Assembly: GCA_035544955.1 (NCBI GenBank)
Contig: DASZZN010000047.1
Span: forward strand, 1-38,912
DNA from: Candidatus Dormiibacterota bacterium
Lineage (GTDB): Bacteria; Chloroflexota; Dormibacteria; CF-121
Direction of reading: 5' to 3'
DNA: 38,912 nucleotides
In this document: positions 3,394 to 19,824 of the stretch, piece by piece
How the letters are laid out: every line of letters begins with the position of its first letter
Position numbering within the stretch: the first letter of the stretch is position 1
Translations under genes and position numbers: made by a program
Notes under the pieces: generated by a model
What the model saw: only the letters and a program-made list of their open reading frames with translations
The model's database searches: none
Told to the model about the DNA's origin: nothing

Positions 3394-4653
3394 TTGCGGC
3401 CCGCTCGCTACCTCGTCCGTCCTGGCCTGATCGTATTGCTGGTGATGGCGGCGCTTCCGGCCGCGCTAGGCCCAAGCTCGGCGCGCCCAACCGCCCAGGT
3501 CGCGCGCGTCGTCCCGACGACCACGCCGACCCCGTCACCGAGTCCCATGACGCCATCAGCCACGCCCGACCCACGACCGGCGCCCTTGACGGTCGACATG
3601 GCCGTCGGTCAGATGATGGCGGCGAGCTTCGGTGGGCCGAACATCACCGATGGGCTCCGCCACCTCATCCTGGACGAGAAGGTGGGCACGGTGCTGATCT
3701 TCAGCGACAACTTCACCGACGCCGCCAGTCTTCTCCGGTTGACCACGGAGTTGCAGCGGCTCGGACGCGAAGCCGGCCTACCGGCGCCGCTCCTGATCGC
3801 GGTCGACGAAGAGGGTGGCCGGGTGATGCGGATCCACGACGGTGTAGCCGCGCTTCCCTCAGAACTGGAGCTCGGTGCCCGCGGTCCGGACGGCGTCCGA
3901 GGGGCAGTGGCGGCCACGGCGTCCGGCCTTCACGCGCTCGGCATCCAGCTCGACCTCGCCCCGGTCGCGGACCTACGGTGGAATCCGGCCGACGGCGTGA
4001 TCGGCGACCGCTCGTTCGGAAGTGATCCGCGCGCGGTCGGGCCGCTCGTTGCCGCCGCCGTCAACGGCCTGCACGACGGAGGGGTCGCCGCGACCCTCAA
4101 ACACTTCCCCGGGCTCGGTGGGGCGGCCGGTGATCCGCATAGCGCCATGCCAACCGACCCTGAGAGCCTCGCACGCTGGGCCGCGACCCAGGCGCTCAGT
4201 TTCAAAGCGGGGATCGATGCGGGTGCTGATGCCGTGATGACCACCTCGCTGGTCGTTCCCGGTCTCGACCCGAGTGGGACGCCGGCGCTCTTTTCCCGTG
4301 CGGTCGTCACCGGCCTGCTGCGCGAGCAGCTGCAGTTCCAGGGCGTGATCGTGACCGACGGCCTTGGCATGGGCGGGATCACCACGCTCTACGGGCTACC
4401 GCAAGCGACCATCGCCGCGGTGGTGGCGGGCAACGACCTGGTGCTGCTGAACAGCGCTGACGCCGCCTACGAGGCGTCAGCGATCGAGATGGTCAAGCAG
4501 CAAGTGCGCAGCGGCGCGATCCCGATGGACCAGGTGCAGGCGTCCGCGGCGCGCGTGATCGCCATGCGCGCGCGCTGGCCGGCCTGGGCGCCATCGGCAG
4601 TCGACGTGTCGGCGGCGCCGCCGACGATCGACTCAGCCTCGAGCCGCCGCTGA
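3394..4653 (+). CDS. Secreted glycoside hydrolase family 3 protein, NagZ-like
   Basis: About 419 residues. The N-terminus carries a signal peptide (basic MRPARYLVRP then a hydrophobic run to about residue 27), followed by a Pro/Thr-rich linker (about 40-65) and a GH3 TIM-barrel domain. NagZ-type hallmarks are DEEGGRVMR near 133, KHFPGLGG followed by the DPH dyad near 235-250 (Asp-His acid/base pair) and the nucleophile Asp in VTDGLGMGG near 325. NagZ enzymes remove beta-N-acetylglucosamine from peptidoglycan fragments; a secreted form fits cell-wall turnover or scavenging. Start is a TTG; no better start preserves the signal peptide. The ribosome binding site is weak. Confidence 0.85.
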   Translation: MRPARYLVRPGLIVLLVMAALPAALGPSSARPTAQVARVVPTTTPTPSPSPMTPSATPDPRPAPLTVDMAVGQMMAASFGGPNITDGLRHLILDEKVGTVLIFSDNFTDAASLLRLTTELQRLGREAGLPAPLLIAVDEEGGRVMRIHDGVAALPSELELGARGPDGVRGAVAATASGLHALGIQLDLAPVADLRWNPADGVIGDRSFGSDPRAVGPLVAAAVNGLHDGGVAATLKHFPGLGGAAGDPHSAMPTDPESLARWAATQALSFKAGIDAGADAVMTTSLVVPGLDPSGTPALFSRAVVTGLLREQLQFQGVIVTDGLGMGGITTLYGLPQATIAAVVAGNDLVLLNSADAAYEASAIEMVKQQVRSGAIPMDQVQASAARVIAMRARWPAWAPSAVDVSAAPPTIDSASSRR

Positions 4654-4654
4654 G

Positions 4655-5596
4655 CTAGCTTTTTCTCCCCACCGGCAGCACTTCTCCCTCTCCCGCTTGC
4701 GGGGGAGGGCCTGGGTGGGGGTTCTTATCTCGCACCAGCCAATTGAGCGCATTCACGTAGGCCTTCGCTGCCGCCTCGATGACGTCCAGTGCCATCGCGC
4801 GGCCGATGACGACGTGCGATCCCTGGCTCAGCGTCACGACCGCCTCGCCCAGCGCGTCCGTGCCCTGGGTCGCCGCCGCGAGGCTGAAATCTTCGAGCTC
4901 CGCCAGCACACCAGTCACGTCCTGAATAGCGCGAAAGACTGCATCGAGCGTCCCGGTCCCGGTCGCGCTGCCGGTTTTGACGGTGCCGTCATCGGTGAGG
5001 GAGACCTCCGCGTTGCACGACACCCCGCTCTGTGAATGCACCTGGACGTCTTTGAGGGCATACCGCCCGGGCGTGCTTCGGCCGAGTGCCTCATCGACGG
5101 CCAGCTTCAGATCCTCGGCATAGAGCACGCGCTTGCGCTCGGCAAGGCTCAGCACCAGCGAGTAGACCGATCCCAGCTGCTGCTCGTCCAGCCCAATGCC
5201 CATCGTCCCCAGTTCTTCGGCGAGCCGGCGCCGCCCCGCTGCAGTGCCAAGCTGCCCGTGCTGCGGCGCGTAACCAATGTCCTCGGGATCGATGAATGCG
5301 GGGAAAACGGATTTGGGCCGGCGTGGTGGCGCGAATACGGATGTCGGGAAGGCCGCTCGCACTTCCTCGATCCAGCGCTCCCACCCGGAGTAATCCATCG
5401 TCGCCAGCATGGCAACATAGGCGTCGAAGCGGACCAGCAGGGCCGCGGGCTGATCGTGATGTTTGACGATCAACGAGGTGCCGCTTTCCTCCAGAGCCTG
5501 AAGAATGGGATCGAGGTTGCGGGCGAGTTCAGGAGCGGAAATGACTTTGAGCACGATGCCATCGTAGACCGGCTTTTCATGCGGGTCAAACGTCAT
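4655..5596 (-). CDS. Phd/YefM-like domain fused to LeuA regulatory domain
   Basis: A 313-residue ORF with an unusual order. Residues about 16-66 (VLKVISAPELARNLDPIL to RFDAYVAML) look like a Phd/YefM antitoxin DNA-binding domain. Residues about 67-112 form a linker. Residues about 115-171 (LGTAAGRRRLAEELG, then LAERKRVLYAEDL) match the communication subdomain of 2-isopropylmalate synthase, and 178-290 match its C-terminal leucine-binding regulatory domain (GTGTLDAVFRAIQDVTG, TQGTDALGEAVV, KAYVNALNWL). The catalytic TIM barrel (DTTLRDG, HxH) is absent. No toxin gene is adjacent. The last about 23 residues are encoded by a REP-like repeat. Start ATG overlaps the divergent lipoprotein start by 18 bp; a GTG at 5554 would avoid this and keep both domains. 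Function inferred, not known: possibly a leucine-sensing regulator. Confidence 0.7.
   Translation of the reverse strand: MTFDPHEKPVYDGIVLKVISAPELARNLDPILQALEESGTSLIVKHHDQPAALLVRFDAYVAMLATMDYSGWERWIEEVRAAFPTSVFAPPRRPKSVFPAFIDPEDIGYAPQHGQLGTAAGRRRLAEELGTMGIGLDEQQLGSVYSLVLSLAERKRVLYAEDLKLAVDEALGRSTPGRYALKDVQVHSQSGVSCNAEVSLTDDGTVKTGSATGTGTLDAVFRAIQDVTGVLAELEDFSLAAATQGTDALGEAVVTLSQGSHVVIGRAMALDVIEAAAKAYVNALNWLVRDKNPHPGPPPQAGEGEVLPVGRKS
4681..4722. repeat. REP-like intergenic repeat, copy 1
   Basis: C-rich arm CCTCTCCCGCTTGCGGGGGA followed by a GGG-rich arm; partly self-complementary. Related copies occur at about 11091 and 26381. The minus-strand translation reads PHPGPPPQAGEGE, the familiar signature of a dispersed GC-rich repeat seen in many bacterial genomes. 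This copy has entered the 3' end of the Phd-LeuA ORF and supplies its last residues. Confidence 0.7.
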
Positions 5597-6760
5597 CGCT
5601 GGTTGTCTTCGCTGGCCGTCTTCCTGGCGGTTGGCGCCTGTCAGCCGGCTCCCACGGCGTCTCCGACGCACAACGCGACGGCAAGCTCTACCACGCCAGC
5701 GCTCGCGTCCTGCCCCGCCTCGCTGGCATCGGCGGGTCCGGAGGTCTTGCTTCGGAATCAGCCGGCGCCGGATGACCTCGCCTTCGACAATGAGGGCCGC
5801 CTGCTCTTCAGCGACATCACCGCTGGAACGGTCTCCGTGTTGAAGGCCGACGGTGCGATCGAGCTCGTCGCCGGCGGCATGTCGGTGCCGGAAGGGATCG
5901 TCGTGCAAGCCGATGGGCGGATCCTGGTCGGGGAGCAGGGCCGCAATCGTGTCGTGGCCATTGATCCGCAAACGCACGCCGTCAGCCTGTGGCACGGGTT
6001 TCCGAACGGGACAGGACGCGACGGCCTCGACGGCATCGGCCCGGTGCTCCCGGAGCGAGATGCCTCGGGCAATCTGCTCGCGACCGGCGGCACTGTCATC
6101 GTGCCGGACAGTCCCAACGGTGTGGTCTGGCGCGTCACCGCCGATGGCAAGACCGCCACGCAGATCGCGAGCGGCATGGTACGTCCCGTCGGGGCCGCCC
6201 TCGACGCGACCGGGCGAATCTTCGTTGCCGACGAGGGTGGCGCGCTCTGGGTGCTCGATCCGGCACGGCATCGATTCGCCACCTTGCCAACACCCGACGA
6301 TGTCCTTGTCGCCCGAGCCGCTCACATCTTCGTCAATACGCTCGGAGACAACGCGATCCACGAGCTCGACGCGCAGGGTCATCAGGTCAGCGTCATCACT
6401 GGCATCCAGCAGCCGCAGGGCATCGCCCTCGATTCCGCCGACAACCTGTACTACACCGAGTTCACCACGGGCCGGATCGACCGCGTGATCCGGACCTTCG
6501 TCCTTGATGCGCCCAAGGTGACGCGGACGACCCGCGGCACGTTCATCATCTGTCCTGTTATCAGGCGTGCCTCGGGCTTCAATGAGAGGTTGGGCCTCGA
6601 GACCGGGTCGAGCTTGAAGACAGCGATTCTCCAACTGGTGCAGCCCGGGACGGATTCATCGGGAGCGATCGAGATTCGGACGTCCGAATCGTCGATCACG
6701 ATGACGGTCAGCGGTGGTGGCCTGTTATCAGAATCGCAGACGGTTTCGCTGTCGCCCTGA
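5579..6760 (+). CDS. NHL/SMP-30-like beta-propeller lipoprotein
   Basis: About 393 residues. The N-terminus (MRVKRHRWLSSLAVFLAVGAC) is a lipoprotein signal peptide with lipobox VGAC, so the mature protein is probably tethered to the outer face of the membrane. From about residue 55 to 310 there are repeated NHL-type blades (PDDLAFDNEGRLLFSD, PEGIVVQADGRILVGE, PVGAALDATGRIFVADE, PQGIALDSADNLYYTE), typical of six-bladed propellers such as SMP-30/gluconolactonase or Vgb-like proteins. The last about 80 residues match nothing I recognise. It starts divergently from the Phd-LeuA ORF and ends directly against the rtcB stop (TGA then TCA at 6758-6763). Ligand or reaction unknown. Confidence 0.8.
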   Translation: MRVKRHRWLSSLAVFLAVGACQPAPTASPTHNATASSTTPALASCPASLASAGPEVLLRNQPAPDDLAFDNEGRLLFSDITAGTVSVLKADGAIELVAGGMSVPEGIVVQADGRILVGEQGRNRVVAIDPQTHAVSLWHGFPNGTGRDGLDGIGPVLPERDASGNLLATGGTVIVPDSPNGVVWRVTADGKTATQIASGMVRPVGAALDATGRIFVADEGGALWVLDPARHRFATLPTPDDVLVARAAHIFVNTLGDNAIHELDAQGHQVSVITGIQQPQGIALDSADNLYYTEFTTGRIDRVIRTFVLDAPKVTRTTRGTFIICPVIRRASGFNERLGLETGSSLKTAILQLVQPGTDSSGAIEIRTSESSITMTVSGGGLLSESQTVSLSP

Positions 6761-8140
6761 TCATTCCGTTCCTTTGATCGACGCCAGGGGCCGCAGCTCA
6801 TGCTCGATCGTCGCAAGACCCGCCCGGGTGACGGCTTCGACGACCTCGCGAGACGATTTGTAGCAGTCCTTTGACTCGTCGATGGGGACCACGCCGTCGG
6901 TGTTCACGACGATGCCCGCTTCGCGATAGGCCGTATTGACGACGTCCTGTTTCAAGACCTTCTTGGCGGCGTTGCGCGACATACGGCGGCCGGACCCGTG
7001 GTTGACGCTATAGCCACTCGCATGGGCCTGATCCGCCGCCCGGAGGATGAAGCTCGAGTCCCGGTTGCTTCCCGGGATGAGAATCGGGTGTCCGGCCTGC
7101 GGGTCGTCGTAGCCGGCTGGAAACGCGCGCGTTGCGCCCTTGCGGTGCACGTGGACCCAACCGAACTCGGGATGGTGCTCGCGCTGGACGAGGTTGTGGC
7201 TGATTTCGTAGACAAGCGAAAGTGGTTTGCCAAAGACCTCCTCGAATGCCATCGAGATCTGCTCGAACATGACAAGCCGGTTCACGATGGCGAAGTTCCC
7301 GCCGGCCGCCACCGCGTTCAGATAATCGCGGTAGTGCGCTGACTCTGGCGTGAAATAGCCAAGGTCGAGCGCCTTGATGGCCGGGTTTTCCCCTTTTGCG
7401 AGGTGGAAATAGTTCGTCGCCAGCCCGTGGCCAAAGCCGCGGCTGCCGGAGTGCAGTTGGACGTATAGCGTGTCGGTGCCCAGGTTGACTTGTAGTTCGA
7501 TGAAGTGGTTGCCGCCGCCCAAGGTGCCGAGCTGGGGAACGCCGCGCTCGGGGCGTCCCTGACCGCCCCAGGGTGGCTGCCACGAGTCATCGACGGGGAG
7601 CCGGTCACGCTCGGTGCGCGTTCGGTCCACCCGCTCGCCATAGCGCTCCGCGTAGTAGGCGGCGCCGCCGCGGATGATCGCTTCGAATTGCTTCTGCGTC
7701 AGGCTCTTGAGCGGCGTACGGCTGACCTTGCCGGGTCCAAGCGCCACGCGCCGCGTGACCTCCCGATTGAACCGCAGCCGATTGTCGGGCGTCGCGGCGC
7801 TCAGCGGCACATCGCTGGAGGCGGACATCATTCCGCAGCAAATGTCAAATCCCACGGGACCCATGGCCACGGCACCGGTCTCCGCGTCCGTCAGGAGCAC
7901 CGTGCCGATGGGCACCCCGTAGCCGTGGTGCACGTCGGGCGTGATCGCGACCAGCTTGACACCGGGAAAGCTGGCGGCGTTCACGATCTGCGGATAGATC
8001 GACTCCTCGACCTGGTCGAGCAGATTGGGCGTGAGGAACAGCCGTACCGGGACGGATCCGATCTCCTGCGCGTGCAGCGTGTAGTAGCCCTTGCCCGAAT
8101 CCTTGACGGCTGACTTCCAGCTCACTCGCGCACCGCGCAT
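6761..8140 (-). CDS. rtcB: RtcB RNA-splicing ligase
   Basis: GTP- and Mn2+-dependent RNA ligase joining 2',3'-cyclic phosphate (or 3'-phosphate) to 5'-OH ends in RNA repair or tRNA maturation. About 459 residues, normal size. Visible active-site elements are the metal Cys in DICCG (about 102), GGGNHFIE (His about 212), QLHSGSRG (His about 230), EISHNLVQREHH (about 312-323) and the guanylylated His in NHGSGRRMS (about 381). No archease or RtcA/RtcR gene is adjacent. The gene is divergent from citrate synthase, with only 33 bases between the two ATGs, so leaders must be very short. Catalytic residues appear intact. Confidence 0.95.
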   Translation of the reverse strand: MRGARVSWKSAVKDSGKGYYTLHAQEIGSVPVRLFLTPNLLDQVEESIYPQIVNAASFPGVKLVAITPDVHHGYGVPIGTVLLTDAETGAVAMGPVGFDICCGMMSASSDVPLSAATPDNRLRFNREVTRRVALGPGKVSRTPLKSLTQKQFEAIIRGGAAYYAERYGERVDRTRTERDRLPVDDSWQPPWGGQGRPERGVPQLGTLGGGNHFIELQVNLGTDTLYVQLHSGSRGFGHGLATNYFHLAKGENPAIKALDLGYFTPESAHYRDYLNAVAAGGNFAIVNRLVMFEQISMAFEEVFGKPLSLVYEISHNLVQREHHPEFGWVHVHRKGATRAFPAGYDDPQAGHPILIPGSNRDSSFILRAADQAHASGYSVNHGSGRRMSRNAAKKVLKQDVVNTAYREAGIVVNTDGVVPIDESKDCYKSSREVVEAVTRAGLATIEHELRPLASIKGTE

Positions 8141-8159
8141 TAAGTCTATGACCGGTTCC

Positions 8160-8165
8160 TATACT
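8160..8165 (+). promoter_or_regulatory. -10 element for a probable leaderless citrate synthase mRNA
   Basis: TATACT (5/6 match to TATAAT) ends eight bases before the ATG at 8174. Transcription would begin at or next to the start codon. No Shine-Dalgarno sequence is present in the gap. Confidence 0.5.
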
Positions 8166-8173
8166 TGGCTCGT

Positions 8174-9310
8174 ATGTCGACAACCAAAGCCGGCCTCGAG
8201 GATGTCATTGCGGCGAACTCCGCGATCTGCGACATCATCGGTGCGCAGGGCAAGCTGACCTATCGGGGCATCGACATCCACGACCTGGCCCGGAACTCCT
8301 CCTTCGAGGAAACGACCTACCTGCTGTGGTTCGGATCACTGCCGACCCGCGAGGCGCTGCATCAGTTCAGCGCCCAGCTGGCGTCACACCGAGCGCTCCC
8401 CACCCAGATCCTGACGCTGATGAACGACTTTCCGCGGAGCGCGACCCCGATGGACGCGCTGCGGACCGCCCTCTCGGCGCTGGCCTTCTACGATCCGCAG
8501 GCGCACGACGCGTCCCGCGAGGCGAACGTGGCGAAAGCCATGCGAGTGACCGCGCAAACGGCGACGATCATCGCGGCGTACGAACAGATCCGGCGGGGCC
8601 GCAAGCCCGTCGACCCGGAACCTGATGGGAGCCACGCGGAAAATTTTCTGCGGATGCTCTTCGGCGCGGAGCCTGATCCGCTCTATGTCCGGGCGATGGA
8701 CCTGGCCCTTATCCTTCACGCGGATCACGAGCTCAACGCGTCAACGTTTGCCGCGCGGGTGACCGCGGCCACCCTGGCCGACATGTATTCGGCGATCGTG
8801 TCGGCGATTGGCGCGCTGGCGGGTCCCCTGCACGGCGGCGCCAACGAGCAGGTGATGAAGATGCTGCAAAAACTCGGCGAACCGTCTCACGTCGAGGCCT
8901 ATGTCACCGAGCGGCTCGCCGCGCATCAGAAGATCTCAGGCTTCGGCCATCGCGTGTACCGCACCGAAGACCCGCGGGCCACTCACTTGCGGGAGATGTC
9001 GCGAGAGCTCGGAGAACACATCGGCAACCTTCGCTGGTACGAGATTTCGCGCAAGCTCGAGGAGGTGGTGATGCAGAAGAAACACCTCTATGCCAACGTC
9101 GACTTCTACTCGGCGTCCTGTTACTTCACCATGGGGATTCCGATCGACATGTTCACGCCGGTCTTCGCCGTCAGCCGGGTGGCGGGCTGGTCGGCGCATG
9201 TGCTCGAGCAGTACGCCGACAACCGCCTGATCCGGCCGCGGGCCGAGTACCTGGGGGAGAAGGACGTCGCCTACGTCCCGATCGACCGGCGGGTCAAGGC
9301 CGCCAGCTAG
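8174..9310 (+). CDS. Citrate synthase (or 2-methylcitrate synthase)
   Basis: Condenses acetyl-CoA (or propionyl-CoA) with oxaloacetate; TCA or methylcitrate cycle. About 378 residues, the size of bacterial type I-like dimeric citrate synthases. Motifs include YRGIDIHDLA near 36, PLHGGANEQVM near 222 (catalytic His), GFGHRVYRTEDPRA near 258 (second His), the C-terminal catalytic Asp region VDFYSAS near 312 and the Arg-rich PVFAVSRVAGWSAHVLEQ. An in-frame TTG at 8165 is possible, but the ATG at 8174 fits the leaderless -10 at 8160. Neighbours give no prp operon, so ordinary citrate synthase is slightly preferred; the two families cannot be separated reliably by eye. Confidence 0.92.
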   Translation: MSTTKAGLEDVIAANSAICDIIGAQGKLTYRGIDIHDLARNSSFEETTYLLWFGSLPTREALHQFSAQLASHRALPTQILTLMNDFPRSATPMDALRTALSALAFYDPQAHDASREANVAKAMRVTAQTATIIAAYEQIRRGRKPVDPEPDGSHAENFLRMLFGAEPDPLYVRAMDLALILHADHELNASTFAARVTAATLADMYSAIVSAIGALAGPLHGGANEQVMKMLQKLGEPSHVEAYVTERLAAHQKISGFGHRVYRTEDPRATHLREMSRELGEHIGNLRWYEISRKLEEVVMQKKHLYANVDFYSASCYFTMGIPIDMFTPVFAVSRVAGWSAHVLEQYADNRLIRPRAEYLGEKDVAYVPIDRRVKAAS

Positions 9311-18196: not shown

Positions 18197-18429
18197 GGGT
18201 CGCCCATCCAGTCGGCCGAATGGGGGAGGGCTCGGTGGCCCCGGCTCGGGCGCAGGTGCAGGACCCGCTGCAGGTCGGCCCTCCGGTAGAGGCGCGCACG
18301 CTTAATGCCCTGGCGGTAACTCTGTAGGACGCCCCGGCTGACATAGGCGTAGAGCGTCGCTGGCTTGACGCCCAGCAGTTCGCACGCCTCGGCCGCGCTC
18401 AAGTAGGGCTCCCCGTGGACCTCGATCAC
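18193..18429 (-). CDS. Excisionase/MerR-type helix-turn-helix protein
   Basis: A 78-residue protein with YLSAAEACELLGVKPATLYA and YVSRGVLQSYRQG, then a Tyr-Arg-Arg wing (ARLYRRADLQRV). This is the excisionase-like winged helix found alone or at the N-terminus of some actinobacterial citrate synthases. Start is GTG at 18429. It is divergent from the DRE-TIM synthase gene at 18508, with two inverted repeats in the 78-base gap, so it probably regulates that gene and itself. No effector domain follows the HTH. Confidence 0.75.
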   Translation of the reverse strand: MIEVHGEPYLSAAEACELLGVKPATLYAYVSRGVLQSYRQGIKRARLYRRADLQRVLHLRPSRGHRALPHSADWMGDP

Positions 18430-18433
18430 GTTT

Positions 18434-18482
18434 ACTCAAGCCTACGTGAGTTGATCGTTACAGTCAATAGATTGCAATGCAA
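18434..18482. promoter_or_regulatory. AT-rich divergent control region with two inverted repeats
   Basis: ACTCA (18434-18438) pairs with TGAGT (18447-18451), and TTGCAATGCAA (18472-18482) is a near-perfect palindrome. Both lie between the HTH gene and the synthase gene in the most AT-rich stretch of the window. They are candidate binding sites for the HTH protein. Confidence 0.45.
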
Positions 18483-18495
18483 ATCAACATATGCA

Positions 18496-18501
18496 TACAA
18501 T
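18496..18501 (+). promoter_or_regulatory. -10 element deciding the synthase start
   Basis: TACAAT ends six bases before GTG at 18508, giving a leaderless mRNA. This supports 18508 rather than the longer reading from 18415, which would overlap the HTH gene and add residues unlike the family. Confidence 0.5.
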
Positions 18502-18507
18502 TGGGAC

Positions 18508-19824
18508 GTGCTGGATCGCGCCGAGCCCAATCTGCTGCGCGATGACTTTCCCTACAGCCGCATTCCGCCGATCCGCTTCGAGGCGAATGGCGTCCCGCAG
18601 GCGATGCCGGCTGACATCTGGATGACGGATACGACCTTTCGCGACGGCCAGCAGGCGCGCGCTCCGTACACCGTCGAGCAGATCACCCACCTCTACGACC
18701 TGGTGCACCAGCTGGGTGGGCCGGTGATCCGTCAGACCGAGTTCTTCGCCTACACGCCCGTCGACCGGGAAGCAATCGCGGCCTGCCAGCAGCTGCCGGG
18801 CCCGGAGGTCACCACCTGGATGCGCGCGTCGCTCGACGATCTCAAGGCCGTCAAGGCAACCGGCGTCAAGGAAACCGGCATCCTGCTGTCCGCCTCCGAC
18901 TACCACATCTACCTGAAGATGAACCGCACGCGCCGGCAGGCGGCCGAGGACTACGCGCGGGTTGTGGCGTCCGTGATCGATGCCGGCCTCCGTCCGCGAT
19001 GCCATCTCGAGGACCTGACTCGCGCCGACCTGGAGGGCTTCGTGGCGCCGCTGGTCGCCTCGCTGCAGGAGCTGGGCCGGCGGGCCGGGGTGCCGGTCAA
19101 ATTCCGGCTTTGCGACACGATGGGGTTCGGGCTTCCCTGGCCGGAAGCGTCCCTGCCGCGAGGTGTGCCCCGGCTGGTGCAGTTCTTCACGGGCACGCTC
19201 GGCGTCGCGCCCGAGCATCTGGAATGGCATGGCCACAACGACTTCCATCGAGGCGAAGTCAACACCGTGGCCGCCTGGCTCTATGGCTGCGCGGCGGCAA
19301 ATGGTTCGATGTTCGGCTTCGGCGAGCGGACCGGCAACCCGCCGCTCGAGGCGCTGGTCATCGATCACATCGGATTGCGCGGGGAGACGCCCGGGGTCGA
19401 TCCCACGGCGATTACCCGGGCGGCGGCCTATTTCCGCGATCATCTCTTAACGCCGCTGCCGGCGAACTATCCGTTCGCGGGGGCCGGCTTCAACGTCACC
19501 AGCGCCGGCATCCATGCCGACGGCCTGCTGAAGAACGAGGAGATCTACAACATCTTCGACACGGCGCGCATCCTCGACCGGCCCCTCGGGATCACCGTCA
19601 ACGACCGTTCGGGGCTGGCCGGGATCGCCTATTGGATCAACACCACGCTGGGGCTGAAGGGCGCCGCCCTGGTGCGCAAGGAGGACCCCCGGGTGGTCGC
19701 CATCCACCGCGAGGTGGAGCGGCAATTCCAGTCCGGCCGGAGCACCGGCTTCTCGCCCGATGAGATGCAGGCCCTCGCCAAGTTGCATTTCGGCAACGCC
19801 CTGGCAACGAGGACGCGCAGCTAA
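18508..19824 (+). CDS. DRE-TIM synthase, isopropylmalate/homocitrate/(Re)-citrate synthase-like
   Basis: About 438 residues; a HMGL-like TIM barrel that condenses acetyl-CoA with a 2-oxo acid. DTTFRDGQQ (near residue 42) holds the catalytic Arg and metal Asp, EWHGHNDFHRGEVNT (near 247) the HxH metal pair, and GFGERTGNPPLEALV and GIHADGLLKNEEIYNIFD (near 335) are typical of the Re-citrate synthase/homocitrate-type subgroup. It lacks the LeuA C-terminal leucine-binding domain. Specificity cannot be settled by eye: isopropylmalate, homocitrate, citramalate or Re-citrate synthase are all possible. No leuBCD genes are nearby. It is probably controlled by the divergent HTH protein. Confidence 0.85.
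   Translation: MLDRAEPNLLRDDFPYSRIPPIRFEANGVPQAMPADIWMTDTTFRDGQQARAPYTVEQITHLYDLVHQLGGPVIRQTEFFAYTPVDREAIAACQQLPGPEVTTWMRASLDDLKAVKATGVKETGILLSASDYHIYLKMNRTRRQAAEDYARVVASVIDAGLRPRCHLEDLTRADLEGFVAPLVASLQELGRRAGVPVKFRLCDTMGFGLPWPEASLPRGVPRLVQFFTGTLGVAPEHLEWHGHNDFHRGEVNTVAAWLYGCAAANGSMFGFGERTGNPPLEALVIDHIGLRGETPGVDPTAITRAAAYFRDHLLTPLPANYPFAGAGFNVTSAGIHADGLLKNEEIYNIFDTARILDRPLGITVNDRSGLAGIAYWINTTLGLKGAALVRKEDPRVVAIHREVERQFQSGRSTGFSPDEMQALAKLHFGNALATRTRS

Follow-up and report, generated by a model that had tools for sequence, protein, structure and literature searches.

The window, a stretch of 38,912 nucleotides, corresponds to contig C47 in a genome of 3.67 Mb that is 95% complete. On its minus strand, between a GH3 hydrolase gene and an NHL-repeat lipoprotein gene, it carries a gene in which a Phd/YefM-type N-terminal domain is joined to the regulatory half of 2-isopropylmalate synthase (LeuA). 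The open reading frame, the domain order, the missing catalytic barrel and the two motifs (TQGTDALGEAVV and KAYVNALNWL) reported in the first-pass annotation were all as described, and the fusion is confirmed as real. The features of the locus are as follows.

4655..5554, minus strand: coding sequence of the fusion protein, 299 aa plus stop, GTG start at 5554
5561..5589, minus strand: promoter (-35 TTGACC, 17-nt spacer, -10 TACGAT, then 6 nt to the GTG)
5393..5548, minus strand: residues 3-54, Phd/YefM-type domain (PF02604, AlphaFold, Foldseek and PDB profile matches)
5294..5392, minus strand: residues 55-87, helix carrying the SGWERWIEEVR motif, then a Pro-rich linker modelled at low confidence (AlphaFold)
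5123..5293, minus strand: residues 88-144, LeuA linker remnant, the end of subdomain I and subdomain II (TIGR00973, PF22617 HCS_D2, PDB match)
4736..5122, minus strand: residues 145-273, LeuA_dimer regulatory domain, predicted to bind leucine (PF08502, Foldseek, pocket residues)
4658..4729, minus strand: residues 276-299, C-terminal tail, not conserved
5579..6760, plus strand: divergent NHL-repeat (beta-propeller) lipoprotein gene (PF01436/PF08450)

The coding sequence was delimited by a start and promoter conserved in 13 loci of the window's family (f1), by an upstream stop in one relative (L018) and by dN/dS values of 0.04-0.13 over its domains. The start had initially been placed at 5596, which is too far upstream. 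In L018 an in-frame stop codon stands immediately 5' of the GTG, and this stop, together with the conserved promoter 6 nt before the GTG, sets the start at 5554; the first conserved residues in same-family relatives begin at the same codon. The promoter pattern TTTGACC-N17-TAnnAT was present in all 13 aligned f1 loci, and the sigma-70-like site at 5561..5589 was the sole promoter-like match in window positions 4500-6800. Given its distance of 6 nt from the GTG, the mRNA is probably leaderless. The conserved parts of this region were the -35, the -10 and the start region only, and no conserved palindrome was seen around the gene's own promoter in the aligned f1 loci. At the other end of the gene, the tail evolves neutrally (dN/dS 0.91) and overlaps a 24-nt palindrome at 4686-4709, a perfect repeat (CCCTCTCCCGCTTGCGGGGGAGGG); the last ~24 residues therefore lie outside the functional protein.

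The neighbours at loci of the window type were the GH3 hydrolase, the NHL lipoprotein, RtcB and citrate synthase. The lipoprotein gene is adjacent and divergent in G017 and G015 too, and we know of no link between NHL-repeat lipoproteins and leucine. The absence of an adjacent toxin gene, remarked on at the outset, extended to the examined loci of f1 and of a second family (f3), and no leucine gene stood beside the fusion at these loci either. No neighbour was conserved across families, and the fusion had no match among defence-system models. Elsewhere in the window, positions 18415-19824 on the plus strand encode a protein of 469 aa that is a remote member of the LeuA/homocitrate synthase superfamily and lies far under all NCBIfam cut-offs (best model nifV, 124 of 463 bits).

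Domain architecture of the fusion protein

The first-pass annotation had proposed the N-terminal Phd/YefM-type domain from the sequence alone. In the window protein, PF02604 matched residues 17-68 (counted from the upstream start) with an E-value of 9e-4; the match held, and its score fell below the cut-off (19.4 vs 29.8 bits). This weak call was rescued by the relatives: PF02604 was matched by 14 of the 15 family members, the G017 orthologue exceeded the Pfam cut-off (30.0 vs 29.8 bits), and the G109 head reached that of TIGR01552 phd_fam (20.8). A profile of 13 heads, compared with the PDB, retrieved VapB46, RelB1 and RelB2 first, all of them antitoxins with this fold, and also YefM. The AlphaFold model of the fusion protein (mean pLDDT 73, pTM 0.55, head about 70) gave the head the order b-a-a-b-b-a, and its Foldseek matches included RelB2, RelB1 and YefM, with E-values of just 0.01-0.1. 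The Phd/YefM fold of the head is thus taken as established.

YefM Arg10 and Arg31 are described as essential for DNA binding in PMC4803016, which cites Bailey and Hayes 2009. In the YefM match, profile positions 3-46 were aligned with chain positions 5-48, at equal lengths, and the two arginines correspond to profile columns 11 and 32, given a three-residue tag inferred from the 86-residue chain length. The window protein has Ala at the Arg10 position and His at the Arg31 position. Across the 13 fusion proteins, the Arg10 column held A, G, E or K, and Arg in none. The Arg31 column held H in six of the seven f1 proteins and K in the seventh (G015); among the f3 proteins it held R in G059 and G104 only and an acidic residue in the other four. 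Since both arginines are replaced, YefM's known mode of DNA binding is not supported, and with no conserved palindrome near the gene's own promoter, the DNA binding initially attributed to the head is not supported so far. The fold of the N-terminal ~50 residues is common to the fusion and the Phd/YefM antitoxins (PF02604, TIGR01552; M. tuberculosis RelB1/RelB2, E. coli YefM), but the fusion has neither their toxin gene nor their toxin-binding tail, R10/R31 or a visible palindromic operator.

The head is followed by a helix at residues 55-68 and a stretch of low model confidence (pLDDT <50 at 73-84). A WERW-type motif also occurs in G059 and G104 and is absent from G033, G041, G100 and G109. 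The LeuA part had been thought to begin at about residue 115, which is too late. TIGR00973 matched residues 102-285 (window 4742-5293; residues in the earlier numbering) over model positions 311-494 of 494 only, and just the final ~190 positions of the NCBIfam LeuA models were matched. The LeuA part thus retains the last portion of linker subdomain I and the whole of subdomain II, and this remnant matched residues 399-470 of LeuA 6e1j in the PDB. The expected LeuA_dimer domain (PF08502) was recovered at residues 159-287 of the earlier numbering, with E-values of 2e-29 to 7e-29. The catalytic barrel, PF00682, was not matched within the fusion ORF in a profile search of its own genome.

By Foldseek, the regulatory domain matched that of LiCMS with a TM-score of 0.76-0.79 on the target, and the matches included leucine-bound LeuA 3fig and LiCMS 3f6h. 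The leucine pocket of M. tuberculosis LeuA comprises G531, G533, L535, V551, Y554, A558, A565 and A567 (PMC2704214). At these positions the fusion protein has G, G, L, L, F, A, A and G, each either unchanged or changed in the way seen in full LeuAs of this class. The pocket positions therefore support, at the level of sequence, the leucine binding that had been proposed for the LeuA part. In the tree, all f1 and f3 fusion proteins formed one group (100/100), which was placed within LeuA and well away from citramalate synthase. Judged from this tree, the LeuA part has a single origin, and an origin of the sensor from citramalate synthase is ruled out; the exact LeuA sister of the fusion proteins is unsure because of long branches. 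The end of subdomain I, subdomain II, the regulatory domain and the pocket positions are common to the fusion and LeuA (TIGR00973; M. tuberculosis 1sr9/3fig). LeuA, however, has an HMGL-like TIM barrel with metal- and substrate-binding residues, whereas the fusion has no barrel or catalytic residues, carries a Phd-fold head instead and sits outside any leucine operon.

Distribution and selection

The fusion was found in 17 of the 18 f1 genomes, where contig ends truncate some copies, and in six genomes of f3. The f1 exception (G016) was not usable as a true loss, as the neighbouring lipoprotein gene is missing from this MAG too; it is probably incomplete at the fusion locus. The distribution within the phylum rests on a 400-genome sample and a 110-genome set, and among the 400 genomes the matches listed from outside this class were full-length LeuA. 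The search for homologues of the same architecture thus recovered them in relatives: the fusion keeps its locus throughout the genus as well as in G015 and G017. The f3 locus differs from that of f1, and five of the six f3 genomes share it, between MetE-like and riboflavin genes or beside riboflavin genes. Each f3 fusion protein is encoded by an ORF of 246-312 codons without interruption, and the stop codons met within some of the f3 matches sit at the match ends.

All structured parts of the protein are under strong purifying selection. The dN/dS rose from 0.044 in the head through 0.076 in the linker and 0.090 in the subdomains (residues 85-160) to 0.129 in the sensor, all of them rough values given a dS near 1.1. 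The head is the most constrained part, a situation common among transcription regulators.

LeuA and the ilv-leu operon in the same genomes

The LeuA of f1, f3 and a further family (f4) ends cleanly after subdomain II, with its own complete linker and without the regulatory domain. This form is the rule in the three families (e.g. L076 (G000:C5) 7736-8968; L044-L067), and genomes of family f2 with LeuA mostly have the full-length form. The fusion carries the only PF08502 domain in each f1 genome that has one, the window genome included; since f1 LeuA lacks its regulatory domain, f1 has no leucine-binding domain of the LeuA type other than that of the fusion. The loss of this domain from LeuA in the window genome was missed by the first-pass annotation and opens an alternative role in trans. 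LeuA without a regulatory domain in the fusion-bearing f1 genomes is new here.

The truncated leuA is a separate gene within an ilv-leu operon unlinked to the fusion. The operon leader has a T-box motif (AGGGTGGTACCGCG), and the G017 leader matched the T-box model with an E-value of 6e-10 and 50 bits, under the 93-bit cut-off. A T-box leader lies at L082 9481-9655 (minus strand), and the same motif precedes the operon in L076, L084 and L083. The product of the first gene behind the T-box is small (~63 aa in G017, MASYTIEIPDGLH...); by eye it resembles a CcdA/RHH-type antitoxin, and it had no Pfam or NCBIfam match.

The LeuA without a regulatory domain, the fusion as the lone PF08502 of f1 and the truncated leuA in a T-box ilv-leu operon suggest that the sensor has moved into trans. 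The fusion was rejected as a strict partner of truncated LeuA, their co-occurrence not being strict either way. G033, G041, G100 and G109 have the fusion together with a LeuA that keeps its regulatory domain (of the M. tuberculosis type, as typed for the G033 copy), and truncated LeuA was not found in these four; conversely, the fusion is absent from many f3 and f4 genomes with truncated LeuA.

Two further observations concern these enzymes. The leuA of G059, a genome with the fusion, has no counterpart for about 33 residues including the HQDG motif (L086 8414-9490; AFAHTARSGRHA), which points either to damage in the enzyme or to a fault in the assembly. At G000:C45 (L005; 411 aa, best 185 bits, under the cut-offs) lies the gene of a second LeuA-like enzyme, which has no regulatory domain. 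Matches like it seem present in the fusion-bearing G033, G041, G059, G100, G104 and G109, and it is another possible partner.

Proposed role as a leucine sensor

We consider it likely that this conserved fusion serves some soil Chloroflexi as a stand-alone sensor of leucine (branched-chain amino acids). In the proposed mechanism, a Phd/YefM-fold head takes the place of the catalytic barrel of LeuA, and the protein would dimerise via its head as well as via its LeuA domain. Leucine would bind the LeuA domain of the dimer, and the ligand-induced change would travel through the LeuA-derived linker to the head. The dimeric head would then bind DNA and tune genes in response to leucine, in the build of a one-component regulator. 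In Lrp/AsnC and NikR likewise, a small domain of DNA-binding type at the N-terminus precedes an alpha/beta domain that takes up a small-molecule ligand and also dimerises, and the NikR head is of an antitoxin type (RHH). Both halves of the fusion have other folds, however, its sensor derives from a pathway enzyme, and its DNA binding is putative.

Taken as a whole, a leucine sensor whose dimeric head binds DNA is the best explanation, and one that we hold tentatively; gene tuning as the output is our first choice with, if anything, a little more reserve. It is favoured by the domains, the pocket, the conservation, the most-constrained head, the gene's own promoter and the absence of an adjacent toxin. 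Counted against it are the R10/R31 changes, the lack of a conserved palindrome, the T-box already present on the ilv-leu operon and the lack of an adjacent leucine gene. The combined role first read from the sequence accordingly stands in its domains, its orphan LeuA half and its missing toxin, and so far not in its DNA-binding output. A broader formulation, a split allosteric system in which LeuA's sensing half with an antitoxin-derived head controls genes, LeuA or both in trans, has an even chance of being correct. For the stand-alone sensor, gene regulation and an action in trans on LeuA have about the same probability.

The fusion may instead be a regulatory subunit that binds the barrel-only LeuA, or a related condensing enzyme without a regulatory domain, and restores leucine feedback inhibition, its Phd-fold head serving dimerisation or docking. 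Such an arrangement, with the amino-acid-binding part of a same-pathway enzyme encoded separately, is known from acetohydroxyacid synthase, in which IlvN acts on IlvB in a similar way. IlvN has an ACT domain and no Phd-type head, and its gene is usually beside ilvB, whereas the fusion has such a head and is unlinked to leuA, and its complex with LeuA is putative. The truncated LeuA of f1, f3 and f4, the lone PF08502 of f1, the retention under selection of LeuA's signal-carrying linker and the absence of YefM's DNA-essential arginines speak for a subunit in trans. We nevertheless regard it as somewhat unlikely, as the truncated LeuA has its own complete linker, the fusion and leuA genes are unlinked, and many f3 and f4 genomes manage with truncated LeuA alone. 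The retention of the fusion beside a regulatory-domain LeuA in four genomes further indicates a role beyond serving truncated LeuA.

Less probable still is a leucine sensor whose head binds a different protein; the partner would be encoded at another locus and might be toxin-like or related to the ribosome. Besides DNA, domains of the Phd/YefM type also bind proteins, within f1 the head is under high constraint despite the lost DNA arginines, and the window genome has four further PF02604 Phd/YefM matches elsewhere; however, the toxin-binding C-terminal tail of the antitoxins is replaced by LeuA sequence, and no neighbour is conserved across families. A leuA altered by decay or mis-assembly, or two frames joined by chance, is highly improbable; of these, the first-pass annotation had named decay as the threat to its reading. 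The C-terminal half is clearly LeuA-derived and a MAG may be mis-assembled, but decay is ruled out by the conservation at the same locus in the genus, G015 and G017 and by dN/dS of 0.04-0.13, and the fusion also occurs in six f3 genomes and a separate leuA lies in the ilv operon.

Each half of the fusion is a known family. In the open-access papers that the search covered we found no report of a Phd/YefM-LeuA regulatory-domain fusion and no paper on PF08502. If the leucine-sensor reading holds, a sensor has been assembled from the allosteric domain of a pathway enzyme and an antitoxin-type fold, which would show feedback control excised from an enzyme and reused. It would also raise the testable question of what controls LeuA in bacteria where this enzyme lacks a regulatory domain, and would offer a ready-made leucine-binding module for biosensors.

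A further regulatory element was seen in the amino-acid genes of the family. In four f1 genomes a SAM riboswitch lies upstream of a thrC-asd-lysC row, at the following positions.

L076 6590-6693, minus strand: SAM riboswitch
L084 12121-12224: SAM riboswitch
L082 4077-4182, minus strand: SAM riboswitch
L083 3541-3644, minus strand: SAM riboswitch
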